From: Weissella confusa
GTDB lineage: Bacteria; Bacillota; Bacilli; Lactobacillales; Lactobacillaceae
DNA: 61,267 bases
Reading direction: 5' to 3'
NCBI GenBank assembly: GCA_016466735.1
Contig: JAAOED010000017.1
Coordinates: 1-61,267 of the forward strand
The position numbers and the translations under genes are program-made. Below, piece after piece: positions 14,389-37,804 of this stretch. The notes below the pieces were generated by a model that saw only the letters and a program-made list of their open reading frames with translations, made no database searches and had not been told where the DNA came from. The stretch's first letter is position 1. Each line of letters opens with the position of its first letter.

Positions 14389-14519
14389 CACAATCTCTCC
14401 GTATACCTTTATTTGAACAATACTATACATTATATAGTACGTGGTGGCTAGGATTTAGGCTTGTTTATTTTTTCCGAGAAATGGAAATTTTCCAAAACGT
14501 GTTTAGTTATTTGTGGTTT

Positions 14520-15091
14520 GTGTCGCCACTGGCGTGACGAGGTGTGGTGGGTGGTTGGGTTGGTGGTGCTCCGTCCTGCAATATAAGCTGGTGGCGACGG
14601 AGTCCCGGTCTCACTAAGCCTCAGCGTGTTTCGGCGCCTGCCGGCTTGAAATCCACTGCTGCTAAGTGATCTCTGGTGCTCCTGTCTCCTCGCTCGGTCA
14701 CCGGCTAATATCGCAGGAGCTCCGCACCACCAACCCGACCACCCACCACACCAGCAACCAAGATATTCTCTATTAGTTTTGTTAATCATCCACGGTTAAA
14801 TACGTAAGGATTAGCTTTCTCTATTCATTGAACCGTGGATGTAAATCCCAGACAGACAAGAACATCTTGGTTGCTGCAAATGCCTGAGGGGGCTTTCGGA
14901 GCGATTTTTTGAAGGACAGAGAAGCCCGACCCGACCGCTGCCCGTCTATTGACCAAAACCCCAAGTTCCCAGTTTGGTCAATGCGACCGGCAAGGGAGCC
15001 ACGGGCAGTGCTCGCGGTTGGGCGTGTCCTTCAGAAAAATCTTTGTCGGAGAAAGCCCCCTCAGGCATTTGCTCGTGCGCTAGCACGACAC
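14520..15091 (+). ncRNA. Large structured non-coding element, copy 1
   Basis: About 570 nt with no credible ORF, between a TraX-like gene and the glycogen operon. GTGTCG (14520-14525) pairs with CGACAC (15086-15091) to close it. Inside are: stem A, 14541-14568 with 14725-14752, extended inward by a stem across an internal loop; stem B, 14754-14770 with 14861-14877, enclosing an inner helix ATCCACGGTT/AACCGTGGAT; stem C, a 22 bp perfect helix 14876-14897 with 15051-15072, continued by 14904-14918 with 15025-15040; and a terminal hairpin near 15072-15087. Wobble pairs mostly favour a plus-strand RNA. No strong promoter is seen. A homologous element is at 29339-29868. Whether it belongs to a known large RNA class (GOLLD, ROOL, OLE) cannot be decided here. 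Confidence 0.7.
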
Positions 15092-15107
15092 TACGCACAA
15101 ACAACAA

Positions 15108-15140
15108 AAGAGGCGCAACGCCAAAACGTCGCACCTCTTC
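15108..15140 (-). terminator. Rho-independent terminator after the glycogen operon
   Basis: AAGAGG-type stem-loop directly after the amylase stop, followed on the minus strand by TTTTGTTGTTTG. On the plus strand it is followed by a weaker T-rich stretch, so it might also end a plus-strand transcript from the structured element. Confidence 0.75.
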
Positions 15141-15143
15141 TAA

Positions 15144-16826
15144 TTATTGTTGCTTAATAATAGCTAACCCAGTCTTGCGACTAAATTGCATCATTTCGTG
15201 CTGCCCATCCTTGTGGAAGGCGTAAATGAGTGTATCTGAATCAATGGCGTGGCATTCAAACCAATCCGCCGATTGCCACCACGTTGGTCGTGATTGTAGC
15301 AAACGTTGGAACTTGTTGAAAATTTCACCGCGTGGCTCATCCCAAGGGAAGTAACCCCGGTTTTCCGGATCCTTACCACCCGTCATCCCCATCTCGTCAC
15401 CGTAGTAAACACACGGCACACCAGGCATCGTTAACCACAATTCAATCGCACGCTTCAGCTTCTCTTCATCTTCACCCATTTCAGTGAACAATCGCTTTGT
15501 GTCGTGCGTTCCCATGTTCGTAAACGCCCCAAAAAAGGCATTCTTTGGGTAGTTAGACTCCAAAGTCATCAAAACGGTCGTAAAGACACGCGCGTCGATT
15601 TCTTCGAGCATGAAGTCAAGAATCAGGTTTCGCAAAGGATAGTGCATAGTTGCTTGCAAACCACCGCCAAGCAAGTATTGACGGCGTTGGTCGTACGCAA
15701 CTTTGTTCGATGCGTCTTCCCAAACTTCTCCAATCAGTACTTGTTCTTTATTCATCTGATTACGAATGCCGGCAATGAAATCATCTGGTAACTCATCGGC
15801 CACGTCTAAACGCCAACCATCGACACCAAATTTATTCCAGTGGTTAATGACCGAATCCTCGTCACCATAAATAAACTTACGGTAACTGGCTTCACTTTTA
15901 TTAATCACTGGTAAATCCTTCACACCCCACCATGAGTTATACTCATCCGGGAAATCCGTGAAATCAAACCAGTGATAATACTTTGATGATGGCCCTTGAT
16001 AAGCACCCGGCTCCTTGAAGTGACCGTCTTTGTTAAAGTAACGCGAGTATTGTCCAACGTGGTTAAACACACCATCTAAAATAATGTGCATGCCACGCTT
16101 GTGTGCTTCATCTAACAAAAATTTGAAATCATCTTCGTCACCTAAGATAGGATCTAGCGCCAGATAGTCTGACGTATCATAACGGTGATTTGAATTAGCT
16201 TCAAAAATCGGGCTCAGATAAATAGCGTTACATCCCAATTCCAGAATGTAATCTAGCTTTTCTGCAATTCCTTGGAAATTACCGCCAAAGAATTCCCATC
16301 GGGCAATCTCACCTTGCTTGTCACGCACATAAAATGGCGTATCACGCTTATTTGCGTAAATAAACGAGTTCGGCTTCGGATTGTTGACGTGCATATCCTT
16401 GTTGCCGTTATTAAAACGATCAACGAAGATGTGATAGAAGCGCGCCTCCTGATACCATTCAGGCAACTCTTCCAGTTCGGCCATCACCGTAATTTGAAAG
16501 TCAGGAATCGATGCGTGATGCATACCATAGACTTCAGCCGCCCCGCCCAAGTTATTTCCTTGCGCGGCCAACCAGTACTGGTTATAGCCATCGATTACTT
16601 CGAAACGATAGTAGAGCAGACCGGCATGGGCTGCTGAAATTTCAACAACCCAATTGTCCTCATCTTCTTCATGCAAATCGTACCAAGTGACCTTGCCAGT
16701 TTCGTCGTCATAGACACGCAGACGCACTTCTTCAGCATGACCTTGCGTATGCAACGTAATGGTTTCGCCAACAATAACTGCGCCAAACGGATCGCGGTTT
16801 GCGACCAAAAATGAATCAAACTCCAT
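15144..16826 (-). CDS. GH13 alpha-glucan hydrolase (neopullulanase/maltogenic amylase-like)
   Basis: Cytoplasmic GH13 enzyme of 560 residues without a signal peptide; in the glycogen operon it likely trims or debranches dextrins left by phosphorylase. An N-terminal beta domain (residues 1-120) resembles CBM34. Catalytic motifs are DGWRLDVADE (nucleophile), LIGEVWED (acid/base) and NMGTHDTKR (third Asp); region I reads DGVFNHVG. A GTG at 16835 is possible, but AAGGTG lies 8 nt before the ATG at 16826. Last gene of the operon; it starts 13 nt after the glgP stop. Exact specificity (alpha-1,4, alpha-1,6 or both) is not decided. Confidence 0.9.
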   Translation of the reverse strand: MEFDSFLVANRDPFGAVIVGETITLHTQGHAEEVRLRVYDDETGKVTWYDLHEEDEDNWVVEISAAHAGLLYYRFEVIDGYNQYWLAAQGNNLGGAAEVYGMHHASIPDFQITVMAELEELPEWYQEARFYHIFVDRFNNGNKDMHVNNPKPNSFIYANKRDTPFYVRDKQGEIARWEFFGGNFQGIAEKLDYILELGCNAIYLSPIFEANSNHRYDTSDYLALDPILGDEDDFKFLLDEAHKRGMHIILDGVFNHVGQYSRYFNKDGHFKEPGAYQGPSSKYYHWFDFTDFPDEYNSWWGVKDLPVINKSEASYRKFIYGDEDSVINHWNKFGVDGWRLDVADELPDDFIAGIRNQMNKEQVLIGEVWEDASNKVAYDQRRQYLLGGGLQATMHYPLRNLILDFMLEEIDARVFTTVLMTLESNYPKNAFFGAFTNMGTHDTKRLFTEMGEDEEKLKRAIELWLTMPGVPCVYYGDEMGMTGGKDPENRGYFPWDEPRGEIFNKFQRLLQSRPTWWQSADWFECHAIDSDTLIYAFHKDGQHEMMQFSRKTGLAIIKQQ

Positions 16827-16838
16827 CGTGGTCACACC

Positions 16839-19250
16839 TTACTTGCTTTCTTGTTGTGCGAGCGCCTTGTGTGGAATGTTCCAAATTTCATCAGCATACT
16901 CAGCAACTGTGTAGTCAGCTGAGAACTCACCACTTGCTGCAATATTTGCCAACGCCTTACGCGTCCAAGCTGTCTTGTTTTGGTAATCTTGACCCAAACG
17001 TGTTTGCGTCGCAACGTATGAGGCGTAGTCACCCAATACAAAGTACTCGTCGTTATCACGAATCAATGAATCAAACACCGCACGGCCTTCTTCTTCGATA
17101 TTTGGAATCGTACCATCAATCAATGCATCCAAGACACGGTGCAAAACTGGGTTGTTGTCATAAATACCTTGGGCAGAATAATCGTGCTTCTCATAGTGTG
17201 AGTAAACCGTATCTGTATCCATACCGAAAGCGTAGGCATTTTCTCCACCAGCTGCGTGAATAATTTCAATGTTAGCCCCGTCCATCGTTGCCAATTGCAA
17301 GGCACCATTGGCCATCAACTTCATGTTTGATGTTCCAGATGCTTCCTTACCAGCTGTTGAAATCTGTTCAGACACATCGGCTGCCGGAATAATCAATTCA
17401 GCAAGTGATACCCCATAATTTGGAATAAAGACAACTTGCATCTTTTGATTAACCGCTGCATCGTTGTTGACCATGTTAGCAACCTCATTAATCACCTTAA
17501 TGATTTGCTTTGCATAGTAATATGACGGCGCTGCCTTTGCGGCAAAGATGTGGACACGTGGCGCTACATAAGCATTCTTGTCATGCTTCAACGCCAAGTA
17601 ATCCGTCAGAATACCAAGCAAGTGGAGCAATTGACGCTTGTAGGCGTGCAAACGCTTGATTTGCACATCAAAGATGGCATCCGTGTTCAACTCCAAGCCC
17701 ATGTTGCGCTTGACCCACTCGGCCAAACGCACCTTGTTCTCGTGCTTCACATCTTGCAACGCTGCCAAGAATTCTTCGTCCTTGGCAAACTTATTCAACT
17801 TAGTAATGTCCTTTGGTAACGAACGCCAACTCTCGCCAATCTTCGTATCAATCAAGGCTGACAAAGATTCGTTGGCTGCATGCATGTAACGACGGTGCGT
17901 AATACCATTCGTCTTGTTTGAGAACTTTTCAGGCCACAACGTGTAGAAATCATGCAACACCTTGTCCTTCAACAACTCACTGTGCAATGGTGCCACACCG
18001 TTAATGGCATGTGACCCAATCGCTGCCAAGCGGGCCATGTGAACTTGACCGTCTTGCAATGGTGACGTGCGCCAAGCGAAATCTTCCCCGTGTTCGCTAG
18101 CAACTGCCAAGCGGTGACGACGATCAATTTCTTGAATCAATTGGAACAAGCGTGGCAATTCAGCTTGGAAGAGGCCTTGTGACCAACGCTCCAATGCTTC
18201 AGCCAACAACGTGTGGTTCGTGTAACTAACCGTACGTGTCGTGATGCCCCATGCTTCTTCCCAACTCAAGCCATGTTCATCCAGCAAGATACGCATCATT
18301 TCTGGAATCACAACCGTTGGGTGAGTGTCATTAATGTGGATGGCTACTTGGAATGGCAATGAGTGTAGTGAATACCCGTCTGCCAAATGGTGCTTAATAA
18401 TGTTTTGTACACCGGCTGAACTAAAGAAGTACTCTTGGCGCAAACGCAAGCGACGACCTTCTTCATTTGAGTCATCAGGATACAATTCGCCTGAAATACT
18501 TTCCAGAACACTGCGTTCAGAAACCGAAACTTGTACCCCTTCTGGTACTTCAGCAGACCATAGACGAAGTGTGTTAACGACGTCATTGTTGGCCCCAATC
18601 ATCCCCGTATCATAAGGCACTGCCAAAACATCAACACCACCTTGGTATACCGGACGCAATCCATCTGGCGTTTCAGCCATGTAGACGCTACCACCGTAGT
18701 GCACGACTTGTGCTTCACTATCTTGGCGAACTTCCCAAATGTTGTCGTTCTTCAACCAATCGTCTGGATATTCCACTTGGTAGCCATTCACAAATGCTTG
18801 GCGGAACAAACCATAACGGTAACGAATACCATTTCCGTTTCCAGCAAGTTCAATACTTGGCATCGCATCCATGAAGTCTGACGCCAAGCGACCCAAACCA
18901 CCGTTACCCAAACCTTGATCAACTTCCGCTTCCAACAAGGCGTTGAAATCAACACCCAAGTCTTGCATCACTTCTTCTGCTTCCGTCAACAAACCTAGGT
19001 TCAGCAGGTTCGCACGCAAATAGCGACCTGGCAAAAATTCAATCGAGAAGTAGTACACCTGCTTTGCGCCGGTGTCACGGTAGTTTTCCTTCGTAAGACG
19101 CCACTTGCTAGCGATCAACTTCTTGGCCACCGTGGCCAAAGCTTGATAGCGTTGCAAGTCCGTGGCATCTGCCAAACTGACTGCGAAAGTCCCCTCCAAT
19201 TCGGCTAGAAAACTGTCTTTCAGCATAGTTACCTTATCGCTTTGTTGCAT
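16839..19250 (-). CDS. glgP: Glycogen/maltodextrin phosphorylase
   Basis: Releases glucose-1-phosphate from alpha-1,4-glucan ends. At 803 residues it is of normal family length. The pyridoxal-phosphate lysine lies in KEASGTSNMKLMANGALQLA, and the family motif GNGGLGRLASDFMDAMPS is intact. GAGGTGA precedes the ATG at 19250. It follows glgA by 19 nt, so synthesis and breakdown enzymes share one transcript, as in Lactobacillus acidophilus. Confidence 0.97.
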   Translation of the reverse strand: MQQSDKVTMLKDSFLAELEGTFAVSLADATDLQRYQALATVAKKLIASKWRLTKENYRDTGAKQVYYFSIEFLPGRYLRANLLNLGLLTEAEEVMQDLGVDFNALLEAEVDQGLGNGGLGRLASDFMDAMPSIELAGNGNGIRYRYGLFRQAFVNGYQVEYPDDWLKNDNIWEVRQDSEAQVVHYGGSVYMAETPDGLRPVYQGGVDVLAVPYDTGMIGANNDVVNTLRLWSAEVPEGVQVSVSERSVLESISGELYPDDSNEEGRRLRLRQEYFFSSAGVQNIIKHHLADGYSLHSLPFQVAIHINDTHPTVVIPEMMRILLDEHGLSWEEAWGITTRTVSYTNHTLLAEALERWSQGLFQAELPRLFQLIQEIDRRHRLAVASEHGEDFAWRTSPLQDGQVHMARLAAIGSHAINGVAPLHSELLKDKVLHDFYTLWPEKFSNKTNGITHRRYMHAANESLSALIDTKIGESWRSLPKDITKLNKFAKDEEFLAALQDVKHENKVRLAEWVKRNMGLELNTDAIFDVQIKRLHAYKRQLLHLLGILTDYLALKHDKNAYVAPRVHIFAAKAAPSYYYAKQIIKVINEVANMVNNDAAVNQKMQVVFIPNYGVSLAELIIPAADVSEQISTAGKEASGTSNMKLMANGALQLATMDGANIEIIHAAGGENAYAFGMDTDTVYSHYEKHDYSAQGIYDNNPVLHRVLDALIDGTIPNIEEEGRAVFDSLIRDNDEYFVLGDYASYVATQTRLGQDYQNKTAWTRKALANIAASGEFSADYTVAEYADEIWNIPHKALAQQESK

Positions 19251-19269
19251 ACACTCACCTCAATAATCT

Positions 19270-20700
19270 TTATAGTTGTTCATAGAGTTCGCGATAGGCG
19301 TTGGCTGATTGTGTCCAAGACACATCAACTGCCATCGCTTGTTCTTGCAAACTACGCCATGCTTCTGGCTTGTTCAAGAACGTTTGTTGCGCGTAATCCA
19401 TCATCCAACCAAGGGTGCTAGCATCAAATTGCTTGAACCCGAATCCGGTTCCCTCTCCTGAAACCTCGTTATACGGCACCACTGTGTCACACAAGCCACC
19501 AACCTCGTGTACCAATGGCAACGTGCCATACAATTGCGCCATCATTTGTGAAATACCACATGGCTCAAATGCACTTGGCATTAGGAACATATCCGCTGCC
19601 GCATACATGCGTTGGGCCAAATGCACATCAAAATCAATGATGACACGTAATTGATCTGGGTAGTGCGCTGCCAAGTTCGTCAACTGGCCTTCCAGTTCAG
19701 GAATCCCTGTTCCCAAAATAACGACTTGTGCGTCGTGCGTTGCCAAGAAATATGGCAATGCTTCAGCTAGCAAATGCACACCCTTTTGTGGTGTCAAACG
19801 TGACACCATCACCATCAAAGGACCAGCTGCGTGTGGCAAGCCAAATTCGTCTTGCAACGCGTGCTTATCCTTTTCCTTACCACTCAAATCAGTTGCATCA
19901 TAGTTAAATGGCAAATCTGGATCAGTGGCTGGGTTGTAACGTTCTGTATCAACCCCGTTTACGATTCCTGATAGCTTGCCTTCGTACATGCGCAAAACTG
20001 GATCAAGATGCTCACCAAATTCAGGCGTCTTAATCTCTTCGGCATACGTGGGACTAACTGTGTTGATACGGTCGGCAAACACCATCGCCGTCTTCAACCA
20101 GTTGCTACCATCCCCAAAACGAGCCTCACCACTCGCGTACAAATTCCAATCCAAATCGAAGAACGTTTGCAACGTTTCTGGCGCATAAGCACCTTGGAAT
20201 TGCATGTTGTGAATCGTCAACAATGTCTTGATTTGTTGTAGCGGTTGTTGCCAGGCATAACGCGTCTTCAACAAGGCTGGAATCATTGCTGTGTGCCAGT
20301 CATTGGCGTGCAATACATCCGGAATAAAATCGATTTCTTGCATCATTTCAATAACGGCAAGTTGGAAAAAGGCAAAACGTTCACCGTCATTCCAGTGTTC
20401 ATAAAGCTTTTTGCCTGAGAAATATGACTTGTTATCGATGAAGTAATAGATAACACCGTTCAAGCGCATCGTCTTCACGCCAGCATATTCCTCGTGGTTG
20501 TTAATCCAGACCGTGAACCAACGCAAATCCATCAACTGGTCGCGGTACTTTTCTGGAAAAATTTCATGGTAGTAAGGCGCAACCACACGCACATCTTCAC
20601 CTTGCGCATTTAGCGCATTAGGCAAAGCACCGGCCACATCCCCGAGGCCTCCCGTTTTGTAAAACGGCACTACTTCACTTGCAGCAAACAGTACTTTCAT
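19270..20700 (-). CDS. glgA: Glycogen synthase (ADP-glucose GT5)
   Basis: Transfers glucose from ADP-glucose to the growing alpha-1,4-glucan. Of 476 residues, the N-terminus has the diagnostic KTGGLGDVAGALP loop that binds ADP-glucose, and the C-terminal GT-B half has FLMPSAFEPCGISQMMA with the conserved Glu. The ATG overlaps the glgD stop codon by one base (TAATG), showing translational coupling. Confidence 0.97.
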   Translation of the reverse strand: MKVLFAASEVVPFYKTGGLGDVAGALPNALNAQGEDVRVVAPYYHEIFPEKYRDQLMDLRWFTVWINNHEEYAGVKTMRLNGVIYYFIDNKSYFSGKKLYEHWNDGERFAFFQLAVIEMMQEIDFIPDVLHANDWHTAMIPALLKTRYAWQQPLQQIKTLLTIHNMQFQGAYAPETLQTFFDLDWNLYASGEARFGDGSNWLKTAMVFADRINTVSPTYAEEIKTPEFGEHLDPVLRMYEGKLSGIVNGVDTERYNPATDPDLPFNYDATDLSGKEKDKHALQDEFGLPHAAGPLMVMVSRLTPQKGVHLLAEALPYFLATHDAQVVILGTGIPELEGQLTNLAAHYPDQLRVIIDFDVHLAQRMYAAADMFLMPSAFEPCGISQMMAQLYGTLPLVHEVGGLCDTVVPYNEVSGEGTGFGFKQFDASTLGWMMDYAQQTFLNKPEAWRSLQEQAMAVDVSWTQSANAYRELYEQL

Positions 20701-21824
20701 TAGACAGTCACCTGCTTCTTGGCTGCACGCACAACCGCTTCCTTACCAACAATAATTGGCATTTCCGGCGTACCATGCAACACAACACCAGGCTCAATTA
20801 CGGCATCCTTGTCCATGATGACATATGACAAATCAGCTCCGGCACCAATCTTGCCACCTTGCAAAACCACTGAGTGGCGTACCTTTGCATCTTCTGCCAC
20901 TTCAACCGTTCGAAAGACAACTGAATCTGAAACAGATCCAGCGAACGTCCCACCTGTTCCAAACAATGAACGGTGCACTTCCGCTGATGGCATGAAGTGT
21001 GCTGGTGCTTCGTTCTTTGACTTCGTGTGCACTGGACGTTCCATCAACAAACTACGGTAGTTGTCAAAATCCAACAATGCTTTGTTTGCTTCAAAGTAAC
21101 TCTTCACATCATGCACTGGCAAATGTACACCTTCGTGCACAACCACGTTAGCACCAAAGTCGCTCATCAATTGACGCGTCAAACCTTGGACATTTTTACC
21201 CGTCGCATGTTCAATTTCACGATCAGCAGCAACTTGCAAAATGTTTGAATCAACAATGCTTGCTTGCAAATAGACCAACACTTGCTCTGCAGATGAACGA
21301 CGCACATTTTCGGCTGGTTCAAGGTTGCGAGCCAATCCCTCATCAGTCAACGTCAACACTTGCATACCAGGCACCAAATCAGCGACGTCCATCCAACGCG
21401 CAACAACCGTAACTGGTTGTGCTTGCTCTTCGTGGTTCGCCACAATCGCCTTCAAGTCCAAGTTCGCCACTTCTGACGTTCCCAAGATGGCCGTGTATGG
21501 TGTCTTAGCATGATTAATAAAGCGACGGATGTCCTTTAATAAACCACGATCTGACTGAAATGTCATAAATAAACCACCGCCCAAGCGATCCATTTGCCAT
21601 TCACGACCCGTACGAACGTGGTCCAAAATTGATTGGCAACGGTCTGGCATAGCCATCATTGTCTTTGTGACCCCAGCGTTACTTGCAGCTGATAGCGGAA
21701 AATCAACCAATCGGAACTTGCCACCGAATGGCACGCTTCCCAATGGACGATCAACCGTCAATTGCCCCAAAGTGTGGCAGTGCGCTTCATTCAAATCGAG
21801 AATGACACTTAATTGATTACGCAT
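20700..21824 (-). CDS. glgD: ADP-glucose pyrophosphorylase accessory subunit GlgD
   Basis: A 374-residue GlgC paralogue that in Firmicutes forms a heteromer with GlgC and modulates its activity. The N-terminal nucleotide loop GGxGTRL of GlgC is replaced ([15 protein letters not shown]), consistent with a non-catalytic or weakly catalytic subunit. The C-terminal left-handed beta-helix repeats are present. The ATG at 21824 has GAGGGGG 9 nt upstream; the upstream in-frame ATG at 21842 lacks one. It overlaps glgC by 8 nt. Confidence 0.95.
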
Positions 21825-22969
21825 TCGACAATACCCCCTCATTTACTTGCGTCTCTGCATAATATTCATCGCAACCAACAACTGCGATATCGTCCGGCGT
21901 ACCAACAATCACGGCTCCCGGCGCCACCACAGCACCTTCACCAACGATTGCGTATGACACAGCTGCGCCTGCGCCAATCTTTGCTCCTGGCATAATCACA
22001 CTATGATCAACCACGGCATGGTCTTCCACCGTCACACCAGTTGAAATCAAGCTGTGTGAGACACGCCCCGCAACGTACACGGCATCCACCATTAAACTAT
22101 CGTGAATTTGAGCTTCTTGGGCTACGTACATTGGGTTTTGGTTCGTGCTGTGCGAGTAGATACGCCAAGCGCGGTCTGACAAGTTCAACTCATTGTCGCG
22201 TTCCAACAACTCCATGTTTGCTTGCCACAATGATTGAATCGTCCCAACGTCGCGCCAGTAGTTACGGAAAGCAAAGGCGTAAACCTTCTCATCGTTTGCC
22301 AAGTAGGCCGGAATAACGTTCTTACCAAAGTCGACCATATCCTCGCCTTGCTCATACCCCTCTACCAAGTACTCGCGTAGCTTCTTCCAGTTGAAGACGT
22401 AGATTCCCATTGAAGCCAAGTTAGACTTTGGGTTAGCTGGCTTTTCTTCAAATTCCACAATCTTGTTGTCGTTATCCGTGTTCATGATACCGAAACGTGA
22501 TGCTTCGTCCATTGGCACTGGCATAACTGACACCGTCAAATCAGCTCCCGTCTCCTTGTGTGCGTCAATCATGTCCGTGTAATCCATCTTGTAGATGTGG
22601 TCACCTGACAAAATCATCACGTATTCAGGGTCTTGGCGATCAATGTAACCAATGTTTTGGTAAATCGCGTGGGCCGTCCCCTCGAAGAACTTGTTTCCTT
22701 CACCGTCTGAGTATGGTTGCAAAATCGATACGCCACCATCCATCACATTTAGCCCCCAGTCTGAGCCGTTCCCAATATGTTGGTTCAATTCGTATGGTTC
22801 GTATTGTGTGATTACACCAACTGATGTCACGTTTGAGTTCGCCAAGTTACTCAACGTAAAGTCAATAATGCGGTAGCGTCCGCCGAATGGCACTGCTGGC
22901 TTAGCCAAGTTCTTCGTCAACTTGCCTAGTCGTGTTCCTTGTCCCCCTGCGAGGATCAAAGCCGTTACT

Positions 22970-22980
<11 letters not shown>
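21817..22980 (-). CDS. glgC: Glucose-1-phosphate adenylyltransferase
   Basis: Makes ADP-glucose from glucose-1-phosphate and ATP, the committed step of glycogen synthesis. The 387-residue protein keeps the catalytic loop [15 protein letters not shown], the [14 protein letters not shown] segment, the metal-binding [10 protein letters not shown] and a C-terminal beta-helix ([14 protein letters not shown]). The start overlaps the glgB stop by 11 nt. Confidence 0.97.
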
Positions 22981-24865
<1,885 letters not shown>

Positions 24866-24935
24866 AATCATGGTCCCTCTTTCTTTTCTCTGGAAAACTG
24901 TTCGTTTCAGAGATTGTCTTTTAATCATATGCTAG

Positions 24936-24954
24936 AGATATGAAATCCATATCT
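24936..24954. promoter_or_regulatory. Inverted repeat upstream of the glycogen operon
   Basis: AGATATG-N5-CATATCT, a perfect 7 bp inverted repeat about 70-90 nt upstream of the glgB start. A minus-strand TATGAT at about 24927-24932 could be a -10. The repeat is a candidate operator; no regulator gene for it is in the window and no cre site is seen here. Confidence 0.4.
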
Positions 24955-25048
24955 GAGAAAATATGTTGTTTTTTCACACTTCCGCTCGGACAATCGTCGA
25001 ATTTGTTATTTTTTGAGCAAAGTTTTTGAAAATATTTTGAACACGCAA

Positions 25049-25084
25049 AAACGCCCGCTCAGCAAATTGGCCAAGCGGGCGTTT
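25049..25084 (-). terminator. Rho-independent terminator after the YhgE gene
   Basis: An 11 bp stem (25049-25059 with 25074-25084) is followed by TTTTTG on the minus strand. It separates the YhgE/Pip gene from the glycogen operon. Confidence 0.85.
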
Positions 25085-25123
25085 CTCAAAGTATTTAATT
25101 CGTAAGATTTTTTATATCTCGGT

Positions 25124-27748
25124 TTATGCTTCAGCAATATCTTGCATCATGCTGTAGTGACGACGGTGACTGACATAGTAAATCACCATAGCGATAATCG
25201 AAACAACAAAGATGCTAAATAGCACTTCAACTTGCGGCATTGCCGAGCCACCAATCATGATTGTCTCACGCAAACCATCAACTGTATAAGTCATTGGCAA
25301 ATATGGGTGCAACCACTCAAAGAAGGCATTAGACAATTGGATTGGGTACGTTCCAGCTGAACCGCTCAATTGGAATACCAATAGAACCATAGCAGCAAAT
25401 GCACCAGCCTTATCGAACCACATGTAGATAGCCGTCACCAATGCGGCATCCATCAATGAAATCAATATCATAAAGCCATACGTTTGTAGTGGGTGAACTG
25501 GATCTAGTCCCAAAATACTACTACTCAAACCATACAAAACAGTTGCTGCCATTACGGCGATACCGAACAACATAACCATTTTTGATCCCATCCAGGCAGC
25601 CAAAGAACTAATCTTAGTACGTGGTGAAATCATATCCAGCATCAAGTTCAACGCCATCATACCAACGAACATCGCAACTGAGAACATGTATGGCACCATA
25701 CCAGTTCCGTTGTTAGCAACGTGATCCTTTTCAGTTTGCTTTGCCGTTGCAGGTGCTGCAATTTGCTTAAACGTCTTGTTGGTTGCCTTGGTGTCGTTAA
25801 CTTGCTTAGCTGCAGACCCCATTTTGTCAGCCAACGTTTGGTTACCAGCTTGTACCTTTGCCAATGCTGGGCTCAATTGCTCAGCGCCGGTCGTCAATTG
25901 GTTAGCACCGCCATTAAGTTGACGAGCACCATCCGCCAATTGACCAGCCCCGCTGTTCAACTCGCTACGCTTGCTGTTTAGTGTATCAAGGCCTGTCGTC
26001 AATTGACTTGACCCAGCCAACAATTGGCCAGCCCCGTTTGATAGGTCACCAGTTTTACTGTTCAACGTATTTAGACCATCACTCACTTGCGTTGATCCGT
26101 TCGTCAAAGCGCTGACACTGCTTGATAGCGTGCTCGTCTTACCCTTTAGCGTGTCCAAACCATCGCTTACCTGGGTTGAGCCGTTCGCTAACGCACTAAC
26201 ACCATCTGATAGGGCGCCAGTCTTACCGTTCAACGTGTTCAACCCGTCCGACAACTTATGCATGTTTTCATCTACAGTATTAATCGCCGTTGGTAGGGCC
26301 TTCATTTGCTCAAGTTGCGTGTTAACCTCATTCAAATCCGTGTTGTTGGCAGCCTCCCCCAATTGCATGATTTGATTTCCGTGCGCATTATTAAACGTAT
26401 TGATTTGCGCTGATAGGGTTGCAATATCCCTAACAATCGGTTGAATTTGCTTAGAAGTTTCGCTATTAGCAACATCTGTCGTCAAAGATGCTGCAATCTT
26501 TGCCTTTTGCTCCGGTGTTACCTGTACACCAGCATCTGCAAATGCTTTATCAACATTCGCTGGCATTGCCGCTGCATCCTTTTCGCTTGCCTTGTTCAAA
26601 TTATCCAAGTGCGTTTGGACCATCTGCAACTGTGTTTGGAGTTGCTCTTGTGACGGCATATCCTTAGCGATATCTTGTAGCATCGCTACTTGATTTTGCA
26701 ATGTCGTAATCTTTCCAGCAAAATCTTGATCCTTCAGTTGTTGATTCAATTGATCGACACCGTTTGTGAGTTGTTCACTACCAGTGGCTAATTGATTAAC
26801 ACCACTAGCTAGTGCTGGCACTTGGCTATTCAATTGTCCAAGACCGGCAGTTACTTGATTACTTCCGTTCGCTAATTGGTTAACGCCACCAGTCAAGGCT
26901 GGTACTTGACCATTCAATTGACCTAGACCTGCCGTTACCTGATTACTTCCGTTTGATAATTGTCCAACACCATTAACCAATGCTGGTACTTGACCGTTCA
27001 ATTGACCTAGACCTGCCGTCAATCGCTGGCTACCTGCATCAGCTTGCGCCACACCGTCAACATATTGTGACAAACCTTGCGTCAACGTTTGGGCACCATC
27101 ATTGAACTGCAACGTACTTGCAGATAACGTCTGCAAGCCACTCGTCAATTGATCAGAACCTGACTTGATTTGGGTCGTACCATCAGCCAATTGCTTATTG
27201 GCGTCAGCGGCTGTACCCATCCCCTTGCCAACTTTCTTCATCTCAGCAAAAATCGTCTTGGCATAAGTCTTTGTGACTTGCTTTGAAATTTGTTGACTAA
27301 TTTCTTTAGCACCCGATTCTGACAACTTACCGGCGATGAAACTGTGACCTGAACTCGTTTCATAATCAAGCTTCATTTGCTTTGGATTCTTATCCAAGAG
27401 CGTCGTAGCGTCCTTAGAAAAGTCGCTTGGAATCGTGATGACTGTGTAGTACTTGCCATCCTTCAAGCCAGTCTTAGCTTCTTTTTCTGAAGGGAAATGG
27501 AAATCCATGTCCTTCGACTTGCGTAGCTCCTTTTCAAGGTCATCGCCGACTGCAAGCTTCTGTCCTTCATAATCGACTGACTTATCCTTATTAATAATGG
27601 CTACTGGCAAGTTCTTCACCTGGCCATATGGATCCCACAATGAGCTCAAAAAGGTTACCGCGTATATTGATGGTACGAAGAACAATACGACGATAACCAA
27701 CATGAAGAACTTATGCGTCTTCAAATATTCCCATTCTGCTTTAAACAC
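25124..27748 (-). CDS. YhgE/Pip domain membrane protein with long repeat region
   Basis: An 874-residue protein. One N-terminal transmembrane helix (FFMLVIVVLFFVPSIYAV) is followed by a long extracellular region of glycine/asparagine-rich coiled repeats (units like LGQLNGQVPALxxGVxQLxxGSNQVTAG, broken here into LNGQVPAL and GSNQVTAGLGQL). About five C-terminal membrane helices resemble ABC-2 permeases. The family includes the Lactococcus phage infection protein Pip and ESX/type VII-linked proteins; function here is open. A TTG start at 27793 is rejected: GGGAGGT lies 7 nt before the GTG at 27748. Divergent from a TetR gene, which probably represses it. Confidence 0.88.
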   Translation of the reverse strand: MFKAEWEYLKTHKFFMLVIVVLFFVPSIYAVTFLSSLWDPYGQVKNLPVAIINKDKSVDYEGQKLAVGDDLEKELRKSKDMDFHFPSEKEAKTGLKDGKYYTVITIPSDFSKDATTLLDKNPKQMKLDYETSSGHSFIAGKLSESGAKEISQQISKQVTKTYAKTIFAEMKKVGKGMGTAADANKQLADGTTQIKSGSDQLTSGLQTLSASTLQFNDGAQTLTQGLSQYVDGVAQADAGSQRLTAGLGQLNGQVPALVNGVGQLSNGSNQVTAGLGQLNGQVPALTGGVNQLANGSNQVTAGLGQLNSQVPALASGVNQLATGSEQLTNGVDQLNQQLKDQDFAGKITTLQNQVAMLQDIAKDMPSQEQLQTQLQMVQTHLDNLNKASEKDAAAMPANVDKAFADAGVQVTPEQKAKIAASLTTDVANSETSKQIQPIVRDIATLSAQINTFNNAHGNQIMQLGEAANNTDLNEVNTQLEQMKALPTAINTVDENMHKLSDGLNTLNGKTGALSDGVSALANGSTQVSDGLDTLKGKTSTLSSSVSALTNGSTQVSDGLNTLNSKTGDLSNGAGQLLAGSSQLTTGLDTLNSKRSELNSGAGQLADGARQLNGGANQLTTGAEQLSPALAKVQAGNQTLADKMGSAAKQVNDTKATNKTFKQIAAPATAKQTEKDHVANNGTGMVPYMFSVAMFVGMMALNLMLDMISPRTKISSLAAWMGSKMVMLFGIAVMAATVLYGLSSSILGLDPVHPLQTYGFMILISLMDAALVTAIYMWFDKAGAFAAMVLLVFQLSGSAGTYPIQLSNAFFEWLHPYLPMTYTVDGLRETIMIGGSAMPQVEVLFSIFVVSIIAMVIYYVSHRRHYSMMQDIAEA

Positions 27749-27785
27749 AGTGGCTACCTCCCTCTTTTGGGTTTCAACCCTTTTA

Positions 27786-27802
27786 TTGAACAACCTGTTG
27801 AA
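27786..27802. promoter_or_regulatory. Probable TetR operator, YhgE side
   Basis: TTGAACA-ACC-TGTTGAA, an imperfect inverted repeat 38 nt upstream of the YhgE GTG start. It matches the perfect site at 27860-27876 in all but one base. Confidence 0.65.
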
Positions 27803-27859
27803 TAATTAATTTACTTGTATTATATTAAGTCTTATAAAAGGTGAGTACAATACACAGTT

Positions 27860-27876
27860 TTGAACAGTGTGTTCAA
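27860..27876. promoter_or_regulatory. Probable TetR operator, regulator side
   Basis: TTGAACA-GTG-TGTTCAA, a perfect 7-3-7 palindrome just upstream of the tetR ribosome binding site. Center-to-center distance to the other site is 74 bp, about seven helical turns, so one repressor could control both divergent promoters. Confidence 0.7.
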
Positions 27877-27892
27877 TAAGTTGGAGGGGAAC

Positions 27893-28495
27893 ATGAAACA
27901 GGCAGAACGAAATGCGCAAACGCAGCAACTCATTAAAGAAGCTTTTATTCATCTAATTAATGAAAAAGGCTTTAACAGTTTAACTGTTTCAGACATCACG
28001 CGCGAAGCTGGCGTGAGCCGTGGTACCTTCTATGTCCACTACACCGATAAATTTGAACTGCTAACAAAAATTGAAGATGAGCTGATTGATAATATCGCCG
28101 CTGCTTTGACTGCTAACTTGGCCGAGCCACTTTCTAACCACACCCCCGAAGATTTCTCAGGTGCGCCTTATAAAGTCTTTAACCAAGCACTTGGGTACGT
28201 TAATCAAGAGCGCGAAACGATGCGCGCGTTACTTTCATCAAATGGTCATCCCCAATTCTTCAACCGCATCAAAGAATTGGTTGATCACCTATTTACTCGT
28301 CAACTAACGCAAAATCACGGTCGCTTTTCAAGTGAACTGCCCATCGATTACACCAAAGAAATTGCTCTCAACAGCATTCTAAATATCGTGCGCCACTGGC
28401 TTGATAAGGACGAACCTGAGTCACCCGAAGAATTGGCCGAAATCTTAATGAAGAGTCGTTTCATGGCCCCTCATGAATTAATTACATTCAACTGA
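27893..28495 (+). CDS. TetR/AcrR family transcriptional regulator
   Basis: A 200-residue regulator with an N-terminal TetR helix-turn-helix (TVSDITREAGVSRGTFYVHY, about residues 30-50) and a C-terminal ligand or dimer domain of the TetR_C type seen in YhgE-linked regulators. GGAGGGG lies 3-4 nt before the ATG at 27893; the ATG at 27860 falls inside the operator and is rejected. Divergent from the YhgE gene and flanked by two matching palindromes, so autoregulation and repression of YhgE are inferred. Confidence 0.9.
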   Translation: MKQAERNAQTQQLIKEAFIHLINEKGFNSLTVSDITREAGVSRGTFYVHYTDKFELLTKIEDELIDNIAAALTANLAEPLSNHTPEDFSGAPYKVFNQALGYVNQERETMRALLSSNGHPQFFNRIKELVDHLFTRQLTQNHGRFSSELPIDYTKEIALNSILNIVRHWLDKDEPESPEELAEILMKSRFMAPHELITFN

Positions 28496-28511
28496 TTAAT
28501 CAGTGTAAAAC

Positions 28512-28541
28512 AAAAAACCAGCCACAATTGGCTGGTTTTTT
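28512..28541. terminator. Bidirectional terminator between tetR and the CBS gene
   Basis: A 12 bp stem (28512-28523 with 28530-28541) has T runs on both strands. It serves the convergent tetR (+) and CBS-domain gene (-). Confidence 0.9.
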
Positions 28542-28544
28542 GTT

Positions 28545-29189
28545 TTACAGATAATTTAATTTTGATAGGTCTTCCAACGACTCCAAGTGGAACCCCTTGC
28601 GTGATAGCACCTTGATAATCTTTGATAACATCCCCTCATTAACTGAGTCCGGCAACGTAAATAAAATACGCACCGTACGTGGGTTGTTATCAGGATTCAA
28701 CGTCATTGATGATGAAATTTGCGTGTAACGCGTAATAATCTTAGCAGCCTTTTCTAGGCTACCACGTTCACCATCCGTCACAAGCGTCAACGTGTATCGT
28801 CCATCATCCGTTTGCCATGAGTCAGACATCAATTTCATCATACGACTGTGCGTCATAATTCCCATGAAATGATTATCCTTATCCAAAACAGAGATGAATG
28901 GCAAATCACGAAGCGTAAAGAACATCTCGAAGAACGTCGCTTCAACGCCAACGAACTTCGTCATGTTACGCATGTAAGTTGTTACGGGCAGATTCATATC
29001 TCCGCCATCAACTTGGTGTCGGTAGATGTGCATCTTATAGATCGCACCGCGGAACAATTGACCACTCTCATCCAAGATTGGAATTGCACGGAAATTTGAG
29101 TTATTAAAGATGTCCAAGGCATCTTGCAACGTCGCATTTTCGCTGACCGTCGTCAATACGTCACGGGACTTAATTAAAGTTGCTAGCAT
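28545..29189 (-). CDS. CBS-domain pair plus ACT-like protein (CbpA-like)
   Basis: A cytosolic protein of 214 residues. Two CBS motifs occupy about residues 1-125 (ATLQDALDIFNNSNFRAIPI and LRDLPFISVLDKDNHFMGIM), and an ACT-like C-terminal domain follows from about 130. This layout matches proteins annotated as the cyclic di-AMP binding protein CbpA in Listeria and lactobacilli. Ligand binding is inferred, since AMP analogues bind many CBS pairs. GGGAG precedes the ATG. It stands alone, with the second structured element upstream. Confidence 0.82.
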   Translation of the reverse strand: MLATLIKSRDVLTTVSENATLQDALDIFNNSNFRAIPILDESGQLFRGAIYKMHIYRHQVDGGDMNLPVTTYMRNMTKFVGVEATFFEMFFTLRDLPFISVLDKDNHFMGIMTHSRMMKLMSDSWQTDDGRYTLTLVTDGERGSLEKAAKIITRYTQISSSMTLNPDNNPRTVRILFTLPDSVNEGMLSKIIKVLSRKGFHLESLEDLSKLNYL

Positions 29190-29338
29190 TTGTGCCGACT
29201 CCCACTTTCTAGTTTCTAATCTAATTATAATAACACGATTACAGTACTACCGCACCTTTTTGTGGAAAGTATCACGAATTCTTCTAAAATAATGAGAATC
29301 ACCTTTGAACTGGAAGTTAGTAAGGCAAGTTGTTATGT
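29190..29338. promoter_or_regulatory. Gap between the CBS gene and structured element 2
   Basis: A 150 nt AT-rich gap with no ORF. A plus-strand TTGTGG at 29260-29265 and TAAAAT at 29285-29290 (19 nt spacer) form a weak candidate promoter that would transcribe the structured element from about 29297. The CBS gene promoter should also lie here on the minus strand. Confidence 0.3.
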
Positions 29339-29868
29339 GTGTCGTCGCTATCGCGCCGAGTGACCTGCCCCTTCTTTTGACTCGCTAACCCAAGTGGACC
29401 ATGACCTGTGGGGAGCGGAGTCCACTGCGTTGCAGCGTACACCTTTACCTCCTCGTGGCTCTAAGCGGTAAAACCGCTAAGAACCCACAACCACGGGTCA
29501 AGGTCCACTTGGGTCTATACGCTCGGCGGGGCAGGTCACAGCAGCCAAGCAATGCTATATTTGTTTGATTTTCATCCACCGCAAAACTAAAGGGCGAACA
29601 ACTTACTTATTTACTTTGCGATAGATGTAAATCCATAACATACTAGAACATCTTGACTGCTGGCATGAGGGCTGGGGACTATCGGAGCGTTCAAACTGGG
29701 GCAACATACCGCATGGCCAGCGCTATTCAGATACGCCCACACAGGACTAAAAGGATTAGGGGGAATTATTTGCCCCGCTGAATGGCGTCTGCGCCATTCG
29801 GTTGCCCCTGTTTGAACTTTGCCGGAGATAGTCCCCAGCTCTCATGCCTCGACGCAACGCGTCGACAC
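29339..29868 (+). ncRNA. Large structured non-coding element, copy 2
   Basis: About 530 nt without a credible ORF. GTGTCG (29339-29344) pairs with CGACAC (29863-29868). Stem A: 29360-29371 with 29528-29539 and 29388-29400 with 29502-29514, plus an inner GU-containing helix. Stem B: an imperfect helix from CAGCAGCCAAG near 29539 to CTTGACTGCTG near 29652. Stem C: 29664-29683 with 29827-29846 and 29690-29705 with 29801-29817. A terminal hairpin is TCGACGC-AA-GCGTCGA-like at 29849-29865. Layout, loop motifs and ends match copy 1 although the stem sequences differ, which points to selection on RNA structure. Confidence 0.7.
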
Positions 29869-29883
29869 TAACCTCAAACTAAA

Positions 29884-33989: not shown

Positions 33990-34472
33990 TTAGCGACTCA
34001 CGACAATTGTTTCGCCAGCTTGTAGGGCATTCATATTAATTGATGGGTTCATTTGTTGCAACTCAGCCACCGTTAAGCCGTGTTGCTTAGCGATTGAATA
34101 AGCTGTTGTTCCTTGAGGCACTGTCAATTGCATCGCAGAACTTGTCGATGAACTCTCAGCTTCATTTGATGCTTCCGCCTCATTTGATGTCACTGGTTCA
34201 CTTGCCACTTCGGCTGAATCAGCGACAACTGTTGATTCAGCTGAAGACGCCACCTCCTCATCTGTCGTATCAACAGAGTCGTTTGGTGTTGTACCTGCTT
34301 CATCAATAGAACTTTCTGAACTCGTTGTGGCTGTCTTCGTTGTTTCGTTATGTGAACCACCACTCACACGATCCAAAACAATTGGTGAATAGAAGCCGAT
34401 AACAAACAAAACAATATATCCCAAAATAACGAGTAGCCAAAACTTGTATTGTTGCGGTTGCTTTGTTTCCAT
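33990..34472 (-). CDS. Membrane-anchored LysM domain protein
   Basis: A 160-residue surface protein. A short cytoplasmic N-terminus and one transmembrane helix (FWLLVILGYIVLFVIGF) are followed by a Ser/Thr/Glu-rich spacer of about 80 residues. One C-terminal LysM domain (TAYSIAKQHGLTVAELQQMN) should bind peptidoglycan. The ATG at 34481 abuts AGGAA; the ATG at 34472 has better spacing and is preferred. No catalytic domain is present, so it likely tethers the membrane to the wall. Confidence 0.85.
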   Translation of the reverse strand: METKQPQQYKFWLLVILGYIVLFVIGFYSPIVLDRVSGGSHNETTKTATTSSESSIDEAGTTPNDSVDTTDEEVASSAESTVVADSAEVASEPVTSNEAEASNEAESSSTSSAMQLTVPQGTTAYSIAKQHGLTVAELQQMNPSINMNALQAGETIVVSR

Positions 34473-34598
34473 GGTGTTCATTTCCTAACTTAAGTTGATT
34501 ATTTATTTTAGATTATCACTTAACCTCTGCAAAAAACATAAGTGACTGTTTGCAACAATATTTTTTTAAACACTGTGGCGATTCTGTGAACGTACAAA

Positions 34599-34628
34599 AA
34601 GGGACGACACATCACCGTATCGTCCCTT
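34599..34628 (-). terminator. Rho-independent terminator after xylB
   Basis: AAGGGACGA (34599-34607) pairs with TCGTCCCTT (34620-34628), followed by TTTG on the minus strand. Confidence 0.8.
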
Positions 34629-34638
34629 CTGATTTAAA

Positions 34639-36147
34639 TTACTTAGCTGAACGACGGAATGCCAACAACTCGTGTGAGATTTCAGCAGTTGCACCGTAAA
34701 CTTGCTTGTAGATAGCGTGGATTTCTGCGTAACGTGCAGCGCGATCTGCATCTGGCAAGTATTCCTTGTCAAATGAGTTCCATGCAGCAGCAGCATCTTG
34801 CACAGAGTCGAACCAACCCAAACCAGTAGCGGCCAAGATTGCGGCACCCATTCCAGGTCCTTGCTCGTTCTTCAATGAAACAACCTTCTTGTTGAAGATG
34901 TCAGCTTGAATTTGCAACCACAATGGTGACTTAGCACCACCACCGATGGCAACAACAGTATCGAAGTCAGTACCAGCTTCTTCGTAGATATCAAAGATGT
35001 CCTTGAATGAGAAGATAATTCCTTCCAAAACTGAACGAACGAAGTCAGACTTCTTGTGCGTTCCGTCAATACCCGTCCATGAAGCGCGGATGTCACCGTC
35101 AGCGTATGGTGTACGCTCACCTACCAAGTATGGCGTGAACAACAAACCGTTAGCCCCAACCGTTGACTTACCAGCTGATTCAACCATTGCCGTGAAGTCT
35201 TCATCAGCAGCAAACGTCTTCTTGAACCATGACAAAGCGTATCCAGCAGCCAAAGTAACACCCATTGAGTAGAACTTGCCAGGGATAGCGTGGTTGAAGA
35301 AGTGAACCTTACCCTTGTAGTCAGCATCTGCGTTGTCTTCGTACTTCAAAACAACACCTGACGTACCGATTGATGACATCACCATGTTAGGTTGCAAGAT
35401 TGCAGATCCGATGGCACCAGCAGCGTTGTCGGCTGCACCACCAAATACCTTAGTCTCCGTCGTCAAACCTGAGAAGGCAGCGTACTTTGGTGAGATAGTT
35501 CCAGCAAATTCTGGTCCTTCGATAATCTCAGGGAAGAATTCTGGCTTCAAACCAAAGGCTTCTTGAACTTCCTTTGACCAAGTGCGGTTAGCAACGTCCA
35601 TTGCAACCGTACCAGCGGCGTCAGAAATTTCCATAGCCAACTTACCAGTCATACGGTAACGCACGTAATCCTTAGGCGTTACGAATGAAGAAGCTTGTGA
35701 GAAGATTTCTGGCTCGTTTTCCTTAACCCACAAGATCTTTGGCAAAGTAAATCCTTCCAAAGCCTTGTTACGCGTGATATCGATGAATTCTTGACCCATC
35801 TTCTCAGCGATTTCCTTAGTTTGTGGCGTAGTACGCGTGTCGTTCCACAAGATTGCTGGACGCAAAACTTGGTTGTTATCATCCAACAAAACCAAACCGT
35901 GCATTTGACCTGAGTATGAAATACCAGCAATGTCTTCAGGCTTGATGCCGTCATCCAAAATCAAACGTACGATGGCTACAGTCGTACCGTTAACCCAATC
36001 TTCTGGGTTTTGCTCGCTGTATCCTGGCTTTGGTTGTGATAGTGGGTAATCATATGATTGTTGTGCAACGATGTTTCCTTGACGATCAACAGCTGAGATC
36101 TTAACTGATGACGTTCCTAGGTCAACACCCAATACGACTTCGCTCAT
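34639..36147 (-). CDS. xylB: Xylulokinase
   Basis: Phosphorylates D-xylulose to xylulose-5-phosphate for the phosphoketolase pathway. The 502-residue FGGY kinase has the N-terminal phosphate loop [12 protein letters not shown], the substrate motif [12 protein letters not shown] and the C-terminal ATP-site signature [22 protein letters not shown] precedes the ATG. Second gene of the xylA-xylB unit, separated from xylA by an unusual 271 nt hairpin-rich spacer. Codon use is strongly biased toward C/A-ending preferred codons, as in xylA. Confidence 0.97.
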
Positions 36148-36418
36148 GTTTATGTCCTCTTTCTTTGTTATGTATACAACGAGGGCTGGGCTAATTTAAT
36201 GGCCCAGCCCTCGTCGCCGTAGGGATTGGCCCTACTGTTATGTTTGTTGCAATGTGAGCGTGAGATAGGCACTCACATCGCTTTTGTTGAGATTATTTTT
36301 GAGATTTTTTGAGATTGAGAGATGCTATATCGACCATTATTTCAAAAGGAGTCGACATGGCGGTGCTAATTCTGCATTAGCGTAAGCCTTTTCTTACCAG
36401 GAACCTATTCGGTTAGGA
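36148..36418 (-). promoter_or_regulatory. Hairpin-rich xylA-xylB intercistronic spacer
   Basis: No ORF. A 13 bp perfect stem (36179-36191 with 36202-36214) lies about 30 nt upstream of xylB but has no T run on the minus strand, so it is not an ordinary terminator. Further small hairpins occur near 36219-36235, 36254-36276 and 36364-36381. The spacer may set mRNA processing or differential stability of xylA versus xylB. Confidence 0.5.
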
Positions 36419-37804
36419 TTACTTTGAGAAAGTTGAACCCAAAACTGAGTAGATGTAGTTGTTCAACGTAGCCTTGATAGCTTCCAAACGTCCTGATTGG
36501 ATCGTTGAGAAGATCTCGTCGTTCGTCTTGTTCAAGATGTAAGCTTCGAAGTCAGCGAATGAAGCCTTGTCGTTTTCGAAGTCAGCACCGATACCTGAAT
36601 CGAATGATGAGTAACGCTCCTTGTAGATGTTCTCCAAGAAGTTGTCTTCGATCATCTTCATAGCAACACGGAATCCAGCAGCGTAAACGTCCATACCGGC
36701 CATGTGTGCGTAGAACAAGTCATCCATCTTGAATGAAGCACGGCGAACCTTTGAGTCAAAGTTCAAACCACCAGTTGGCAATCCACCGTTCTTGATGAAC
36801 TCGTACATAACCAAAGTAGCTTCGTAGATGTCGTTAGGGAATTCGTCGATATCCCAACCAGTTTGCTTGTCACCCATGTTGGCGTCCAATGAACCCAACA
36901 TACCAGCTTCACGTGCAAAACGTGCTTCGTGCTCGTAAGTGTGACCAGCCAAGTATGCGTGGTTACCTTCCAAGTTCAACTTGAAGTCGTTTTCCAAACC
37001 GTACGTCTTCAAGAAGGCGATAGTAGTTTGTACGTCAGTGTCGTATTGGTGAGCAGTTGGCTCCTTTGGCTTAGGCTCCAACAAGAATTGACCAGTGTAG
37101 CCAATTTCGTTAGCATACAACTTAGCCAACTTGAAGAACTTAGCGATGTGGTCCAACTCACGCTTCGTGTCAGTGTTCAACAATGACTCGTAACCTTCAC
37201 GACCACCCCAGAATACGTATGATTCTGAGTTCAAACGCTTAGCGATTTCCAATGAGTGCTTAACTTGTGCTGCTGCGTAAGCAAATACGTCAGCAAATGG
37301 CGTAGTAGCTCCACCAGCCATGAAACGCTTGTTAGTGAACAATGATGACGTGTTCCACAACAACTTCTTGCCAGTTTCCTTCATCTTTTCTTCGATGCGG
37401 TCAACAACGGCGTCCAAGTTAGCGTTCGTCTCTGCCAAAGTGTTACCTTCAGGAGCCAAGTCACGATCGTGGAATGCGAAGTATTCAACACCCAACTTGT
37501 CCATGAACTCGAACATGTAGTCAACCTTAGCGATTGCGTGGTCCAAGTCAGTCATGTCGTCAACACCGTTAACGTCCCATGGACGCTCGGCAGTACCTTC
37601 ACCAAATGGGTCAACCATGCGTTGGTCCATCGTGTGCCAGTAAGCAACTGAGAACTTCATCCAGTCCTTCATCGTCTTAGTCTCACCGTTGATAGTGAAA
37701 ACCTCTTCTGGGTTGTAGAAGTTGTATCCCTTTGATGCTTCAAAGTTCAATCCCTTTGCTCCGCCGATAAATTCTACCTTAGGAAAGTCGAACAATTCTG
37801 ACAT
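36419..37804 (-). CDS. xylA: Xylose isomerase
   Basis: Interconverts D-xylose and D-xylulose, using divalent metal. The 461-residue (class II length) protein shows [13 protein letters not shown] with the catalytic His, [10 protein letters not shown], the metal-ligand [10 protein letters not shown] and [20 protein letters not shown] precedes the ATG at 37804; the longer TTG-started frame overlaps the operator and is rejected. Transcribed from the strong promoter at 37903-37931 under XylR and CcpA control. Confidence 0.97.

Follow-up and report, generated by a model that had tools for sequence, protein, structure and literature searches.

Multi-hairpin intergenic repeats in a Weissella group: a probable family of mobile, self-folding DNA elements

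Miniature inverted-repeat transposable elements (MITEs) and foldback elements carry terminal inverted repeats and no evident gene, lie between genes, are present in some relatives and absent from others, and leave remnants. For REPINs, which are doublets of repetitive extragenic palindromic (REP) sequences, RAYT transposases have been put forward as the movers. Group II introns of class IIC insert next to intrinsic terminators (PMC4424553), and GOLLD takes its name in part from the Lactobacillales. Here we analyse two elements, element 1 at 14507-15106 and element 2 at about 29327-29883, in a stretch of 61,267 nucleotides of Weissella confusa DNA (assembly GCA_016466735.1, contig JAAOED010000017.1, positions 1 to 61,267 of the forward strand; hereafter the window), and the family of about 45 places between the genes of this Weissella genome to which they belong. 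We read the family as mobile, apparently non-coding, self-folding DNA elements, similar to MITEs and foldback elements, with exchangeable arms, in a group of Weissella to which W. confusa belongs, and we give this reading a probability of roughly 0.6. It is preferred to that of a single RNA because modules occur in both senses, elements are inverted in place, relatives have empty sites, and whole elements favour neither strand.

Architecture and distribution of the family

The two window elements have a common layout, in which a central hairpin B is flanked on each side by an arm hairpin, a mini-hairpin and a terminal inverted repeat. Their features are as follows.

Element 1
14507..14524, + strand: left terminal inverted repeat TTATTTGTGGTTTGTGTC; the family pattern is TAGTTNGTGGTNNGTGTC
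14519-14525: TGTGTCG
14523..14542, + strand: left mini-hairpin CGCCACTGGCG with the next bases, from the sequence
14543..14750, + strand: left arm hairpin, module M1
14752..14876, + strand: central quasi-palindromic hairpin B with GATGTAAATCC..AGAACATCTTG-N3-GCTG
14838-14848: GATGTAAATCC; the GCTG ends at 14876
14876..15072, + strand: right arm hairpin, module M3, internal loop TCGGAGCG / CTTTGTCGGAGA
14876-14889 and 15059-15072: arms of stem C
14896-14903: TCGGAGCG, opposite CTTTGTCGGAGA at 15041-15052
15073..15088, + strand: right mini-hairpin TCGTGCGCTAGCACGA
15086-15093: CGACACTA
15087..15106, - strand: right terminal inverted repeat
15105..15142, - strand: intrinsic-terminator-like site of the neighbouring minus-strand gene, whose T-rich tail enters the right inverted repeat of element 1

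Element 2
29327..29343, + strand: left terminal inverted repeat, diverged
29338-29344: TGTGTCG
29344..29360, + strand: left mini-hairpin GTCGCTATCGCGCCGAG
29361..29538, + strand: left arm hairpin, module M2
29539..29662, + strand: central hairpin B
29624-29634: GATGTAAATCC; the GCTG ends at 29662
29663..29847, + strand: right arm hairpin, module M4, internal loop TCGGAGCG / CTTTGCCGGAGA
29663-29677 and 29833-29847: arms of stem C
29682-29689: TCGGAGCG, opposite CTTTGCCGGAGA at 29817-29828
29848..29865, + strand: right mini-hairpin CTCGACGCAACGCGTCGA
29863-29870: CGACACTA
29864..29883, - strand: right terminal inverted repeat, with a terminator reading into this end detected

A preliminary description of the window had treated 14838-29660 as one span, which starts inside the first element and joins two separate ones; the copies themselves are real, and all the kept strings that it named are present in both when checked against the sequence. 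Folded as single strands, elements 1 and 2 have z-scores of -17.86 and -13.71 against shuffles, and the core pattern, allowing up to 2 mismatches, has 31 forward and 20 reverse matches in the genome to which the window belongs (G000), compared with 1 and 1 for a reversed control. Both results lie beyond chance. According to the list of open reading frames (ORFs), long minus-strand ORFs flank both elements; none of at least 80 amino acids lies within element 2, while ORFs of 113, 82 and 83 amino acids overlap element 1.

Searches of DNA with the two elements, and with R1, a covariance model of hairpin B, uncovered many more copies. At E<=1, R1 locates 36 distinct places in the own genome, so that the family extends well past the two copies from which it was described. 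The 36 places derive from 65 matches, 29 of which hit the opposite strand of a place counted once before; hairpin B matches on both strands at these 29 of the 36 places because it is itself a quasi-palindrome. R1 models mainly sequence, since RNAalifold gives hairpin B a weak structure of 14 pairs. A library made of the elements themselves was used to mask 52 fetched own-genome loci and the two window elements; 47 of these had a masked stretch of 30 bases or more, and because they include at least two pairs that look like halves of one element cut by contig ends (L111/L113 and L035/L114), we give the copy number as about 45. Element length is mostly 0.25-0.6 kb. A number of own-genome contigs (for example C4, C7, C8, C9, C13, C20, C23, C24 and C27) terminate within or close to an element; the repeats probably break the assembly there.

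R1 matches occur in 6 of 60 genomes, the own genome included, and in none of the 32 outside the genus; with stricter filters they occur in 4 of 397 genomes of the taxonomic family. Within these searches the family was confined to a single Weissella group, W. confusa included, and exact matches to an end pattern are present in W. confusa VTT E-062653 and DSM 20196. Plasmids, phages and viral contigs gave no match, the phage search having used element 2 only. The more distant relative G021 has M4-like cores at L147, L148, L149, L150 and L152 without a hairpin B match. Genome G004 was excluded from comparisons, as its blocks look scrambled: at G004:C11:47719-50489 and 34255-36432, matches to one locus appear as blocks of about 200 bases whose order is reversed while their orientation is unchanged, which looks like a scrambled line order in the record. 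The literature searched, from which most subscription papers and all bioRxiv preprints were absent, holds no description of this family, and PMC3733652 makes no mention of Lactobacill, Weissella, Leuconostoc or Firmicutes.

Covariation, exchangeable modules and empty sites

The stems vary with compensation and are not conserved by identity only. In 21 M4-type right arms from four genomes, 96.9% of cells are paired, and 27 of 66 pairs have changed on both sides, a count reached in 0 of 500 shuffles (mean 14.4). The change is concentrated in the outer stem, where 20 of 21 pairs have changed on both sides and are still paired, just as had been claimed for the two window copies; in the inner helix, 17 of 22 pairs never vary. 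Among the double-changed cells of the M4 outer stem, 49 of 89 are transversion swaps without a G.U path, which we count in favour of mobile DNA, and orthologous elements differ by whole stem blocks (for example L123 and L140). Covariation alone does not prove RNA, because compensatory changes are also called common in the DNA of REPINs (PMC3116915).

The arms are drawn from a small set of modules. With hairpin B setting the orientation, the left side carries M1+, M2+ or M2b+ and the right side M3+, M4+, M1- or M2-; modules M1 and M2 therefore stand on both sides in opposite sense, and in the same sense relative to the element end. One transcript could thus hold a module together with the complement of its relative. 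Two orthologous loci are inverted in place between species (L122 with respect to L049 and L131, and L121 with respect to L136), and in the second of these the body is turned but not the inverted repeat and mini-hairpin, which remain beside the flank. At another shared locus an arm has been swapped (L039 compared with L119). Terminal inverted repeats are found at both ends, matching for instance in 16 of 16 letters in L044. A separate arrangement is seen at L133:982-1996 in G023, where two incomplete B hairpins of opposite orientation lie within 1.0 kb bounded by inverted repeats; this may be one copy nested in another, or a duplication.

For 12 own-genome loci the flanking sequence was sought in four relatives, and 8 of the loci were viewed. 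At six of the eight (L017, L034, L047, L050, L107 and L110) the relatives G003, G023 and G027 are without the element (for L017, G003 and G027), and the best inverted-repeat score at these empty sites is 8-10 of 15, not above shuffles; at L050 the target terminator is partly missing. L043 keeps a scar in its relatives (14 of 15 in both G027 and G003), and L020 is ambiguous, the relatives scoring 9 of 15, not above shuffles. The sites of elements 1 and 2 in G003, G023 and G027 have lost the body and kept end-like remnants, with inverted-repeat scores of 12 and 13 at the element 1 site in the two relatives scored. Reduced forms include L169, which consists of two inverted repeats only, and L170 and L180, which have inverted repeats with one mini-hairpin between them. 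At L169:923-958 (G027:C1:2012822-2012857) the two terminal inverted repeats directly abut, and, judged by flank sequence, G023 has a full element there (L129). From these sequence comparisons, copies appear to insert, to be inherited, to flip, to exchange arms and to shrink. The orientation of elements relative to neighbouring ORFs follows no clear rule among the 24 loci with both neighbours called: relative to hairpin B, both are antisense at 13 (among them L022, which lacks a called B orientation), both sense at 6 and mixed at 5.

On the reading as mobile DNA, insertion, often beside intrinsic terminators, would be carried out by an enzyme acting in trans, a mover that our searches did not find. 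Template switching between palindrome arms would renew the outer stems and also invert the spacers, and/or the hairpins would be kept by recognition in single-stranded or cruciform DNA, with the conserved inner helices and loops as the recognised parts. Template switching is described as homogenising inverted-repeat arms and inverting spacers (PMC8604942) and as able to maintain hairpins (PMC8794818), and REPINs offer a precedent for mobile hairpin DNA in which compensatory changes are common (PMC3116915).

Strand preference and alternative readings

Paired ends were found in 59 loci, of which 38 were taken into a strand test of whole elements together with element 2 and L021, set by hand (n=40); the other 21 were dropped as, by eye, chance or partial pairings. 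The plus strand is the more stable in 14 of 40, so that neither strand is consistently preferred, whereas an RNase P control, with the alignment in antisense, favours the RNA strand in 30 of 30 (19.5 kcal/mol on average). Folding energies are preferred here to mismatch counts: folds of the 40 elements without G.U pairs have 108 G.T and 101 A.C mismatches on the plus strand, a weak test in which even the RNase P control, read in the RNA sense, gives no more than 11 to 6. One-sided stem changes in five orthologous pairs comprise 26 G.T, 37 A.C and 58 other; those of RNase P comprise 652, 18 and 87 on the consensus fold and 1581, 1172 and 1575 on folds without G.U pairs. As the latter folds are those used for the elements, the contrast with RNase P is modest on equal terms.

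The arms behave differently, and here several results weigh against our preferred reading. In a comparison of arms and hairpin B covering 35 of 37 listed elements, some of them cut by contig ends (L017 and L021 were left out because the B match is too short, and element 1 is not listed), the B-plus strand gives the better fold for 32 of 33 right arms and for 17 of 33 left arms, the latter showing no preference. Sorted by module, the strand that reads outward to the element end is more stable in 28 of 30 for M1, 8 of 14 for M2, 16 of 20 for M2b, 7 of 9 for M3 and 20 of 21 for M4. Counted as distinct mismatch column states in outward letters over these modules, G.T exceeds A.C by 48 to 22 (M1 19/6, M2 with M2b 9/6, M3 9/4, M4 11/6), a ratio like that of RNase P by the same measure (9 to 4). 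One-sided changes on the outward consensus fold give G.T/A.C counts of 767/145 for M1, 448/80 for M2b, 447/112 for M4, 130/82 for M2 and 28/19 for M3; the inward fold, in outward letters, gives 317/246, 240/144, 397/143, 107/108 and 28/19 in the same order, and RNase P gives 654/18 on its own strand and 302/186 from the antisense fold. The module counts are not independent, the copies being related, although the direction is common to the modules. A process blind to strand does not predict the end-outward excess of G.T or the preference of the right arms; one strand of each arm may be recognised, as DNA or as RNA.

The search for a mover adds to these difficulties. An autonomous partner with the same ends was not seen with the end pattern (up to 2 mismatches) in 5 genomes, and no facing end pairs 1-5 kb apart occur in the three contigs of G027, the fragmented other assemblies not being checked by pair. 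The Y1 transposase model PF01797 has no match in G000, G003 or G004, on which ground this enzyme was rejected as the mover in the own genome; the model has one match in G021, and G023 and G027 lay outside the search. Inspection of the six empty sites by eye revealed no target-site duplication, and it is parsimony that makes insertion, rather than loss, the probable direction of change there. A preference for insertion at terminators is likely, as intrinsic terminators read into an end within 70 nt in 22 of 27 elements and into 26 of 54 ends in all, with 3 reading away and 1.65 in shuffles, a count set against shuffles and away-reading sites only and not against element-free intergenic regions.

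The alternative that fares best is a structured RNA family, in which the element or each arm is transcribed and acts as RNA, for example as a transposon-associated guide or scaffold RNA or as a ribozyme-like retroelement. The strong covariation, the conserved loops, the nearly invariant inner helix, the one-strand preference of the right arms and the end-outward excess of G.T over A.C all speak for it, as does the insertion of class IIC group II introns at terminators (PMC4424553). It has to be set against M1 and M2 in opposite senses, the in-place inversions, the lack of a strand preference in whole elements and hairpin B, which folds better on the strand opposite to the right arms in 28 of 35. 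Sigma-70 promoter-like and terminator-like sites are not above shuffles, and the window has no Rfam match at the gathering score; at E<=5 there are only chance-like matches to microRNA, snoRNA, lncRNA and terminator-like families far under their cut-offs. A group II intron core is rejected by the absence of an Rfam group II match at either threshold, and the known Rfam families, GOLLD, ROOL and OLE included, by the absence of a match at the gathering score. We regard this alternative as rather unlikely. Of the proposal in the preliminary description that the copies are one RNA family with a fixed core and a functional RNA, the single family, conserved centre, loops and covarying stems hold; a single RNA fits poorly with modules in both senses, inversions in place and whole elements indifferent to strand, while the covariation, the inner helix and the 32 of 33 right arms still favour some part for RNA.

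That the elements are selfish or dead palindromes, whose structure is unrecognised and whose arms are paired solely because template switching in replication homogenises inverted repeats and inverts spacers (PMC8604942) and maintains hairpins (PMC8794818), would suit the block-wise change of outer stems and the internal deletions seen, but is improbable given the 17 invariant inner-helix pairs in arms from four genomes, the copies at loci empty in relatives, which need a mobilising step, and the right-arm strand preference, which it does not predict.

A more specific form of the mobile DNA element can be proposed only tentatively. The family may be a new kind of mobile element with a two-ended, multi-hairpin body, in which the arms are interchangeable cassettes, each selected to fold as a single strand that always has one sense with respect to its end (transferred-strand DNA or outward RNA). 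A novel enzyme would carry it to terminators and turn it around in place.

Compensatory change usually counts as the foremost evidence for a functional RNA, and this family combines a very strong signal of that kind with the marks of a mobile DNA palindrome, namely modules in both senses, in-place inversion, empty sites and scars. The family is well suited to tests that separate selection on RNA from palindrome homogenisation, and it might point the way to a novel mobilising enzyme in a bacterium of foods.

Comparison with known systems

GOLLD, ROOL and OLE are likewise large and rich in helices, but the elements here have no Rfam match, occupy about 45 places per genome and carry modules in both senses. 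Group IIC introns share with them a large multi-helix body and, as far as the terminator counts go, a probable preference for places next to intrinsic terminators (PMC4424553), and are set apart by the lack of an Rfam group II match in the window, by the invertible body and by ends that are inverted repeats. REPINs are similarly hairpin-forming, intergenic and present in many copies, with compensatory changes (PMC3116915); the elements described here are larger and multi-armed, and the Y1 transposase was not found in G000, G003 and G004. From MITEs and foldback elements they differ in that no target-site duplication was seen and no partner transposase found, and in their long multi-hairpin body with exchangeable arm modules; yet they resemble them in their terminal inverted repeats, the lack of an evident gene, their place between genes, their presence and absence between relatives and the remnants that they leave.

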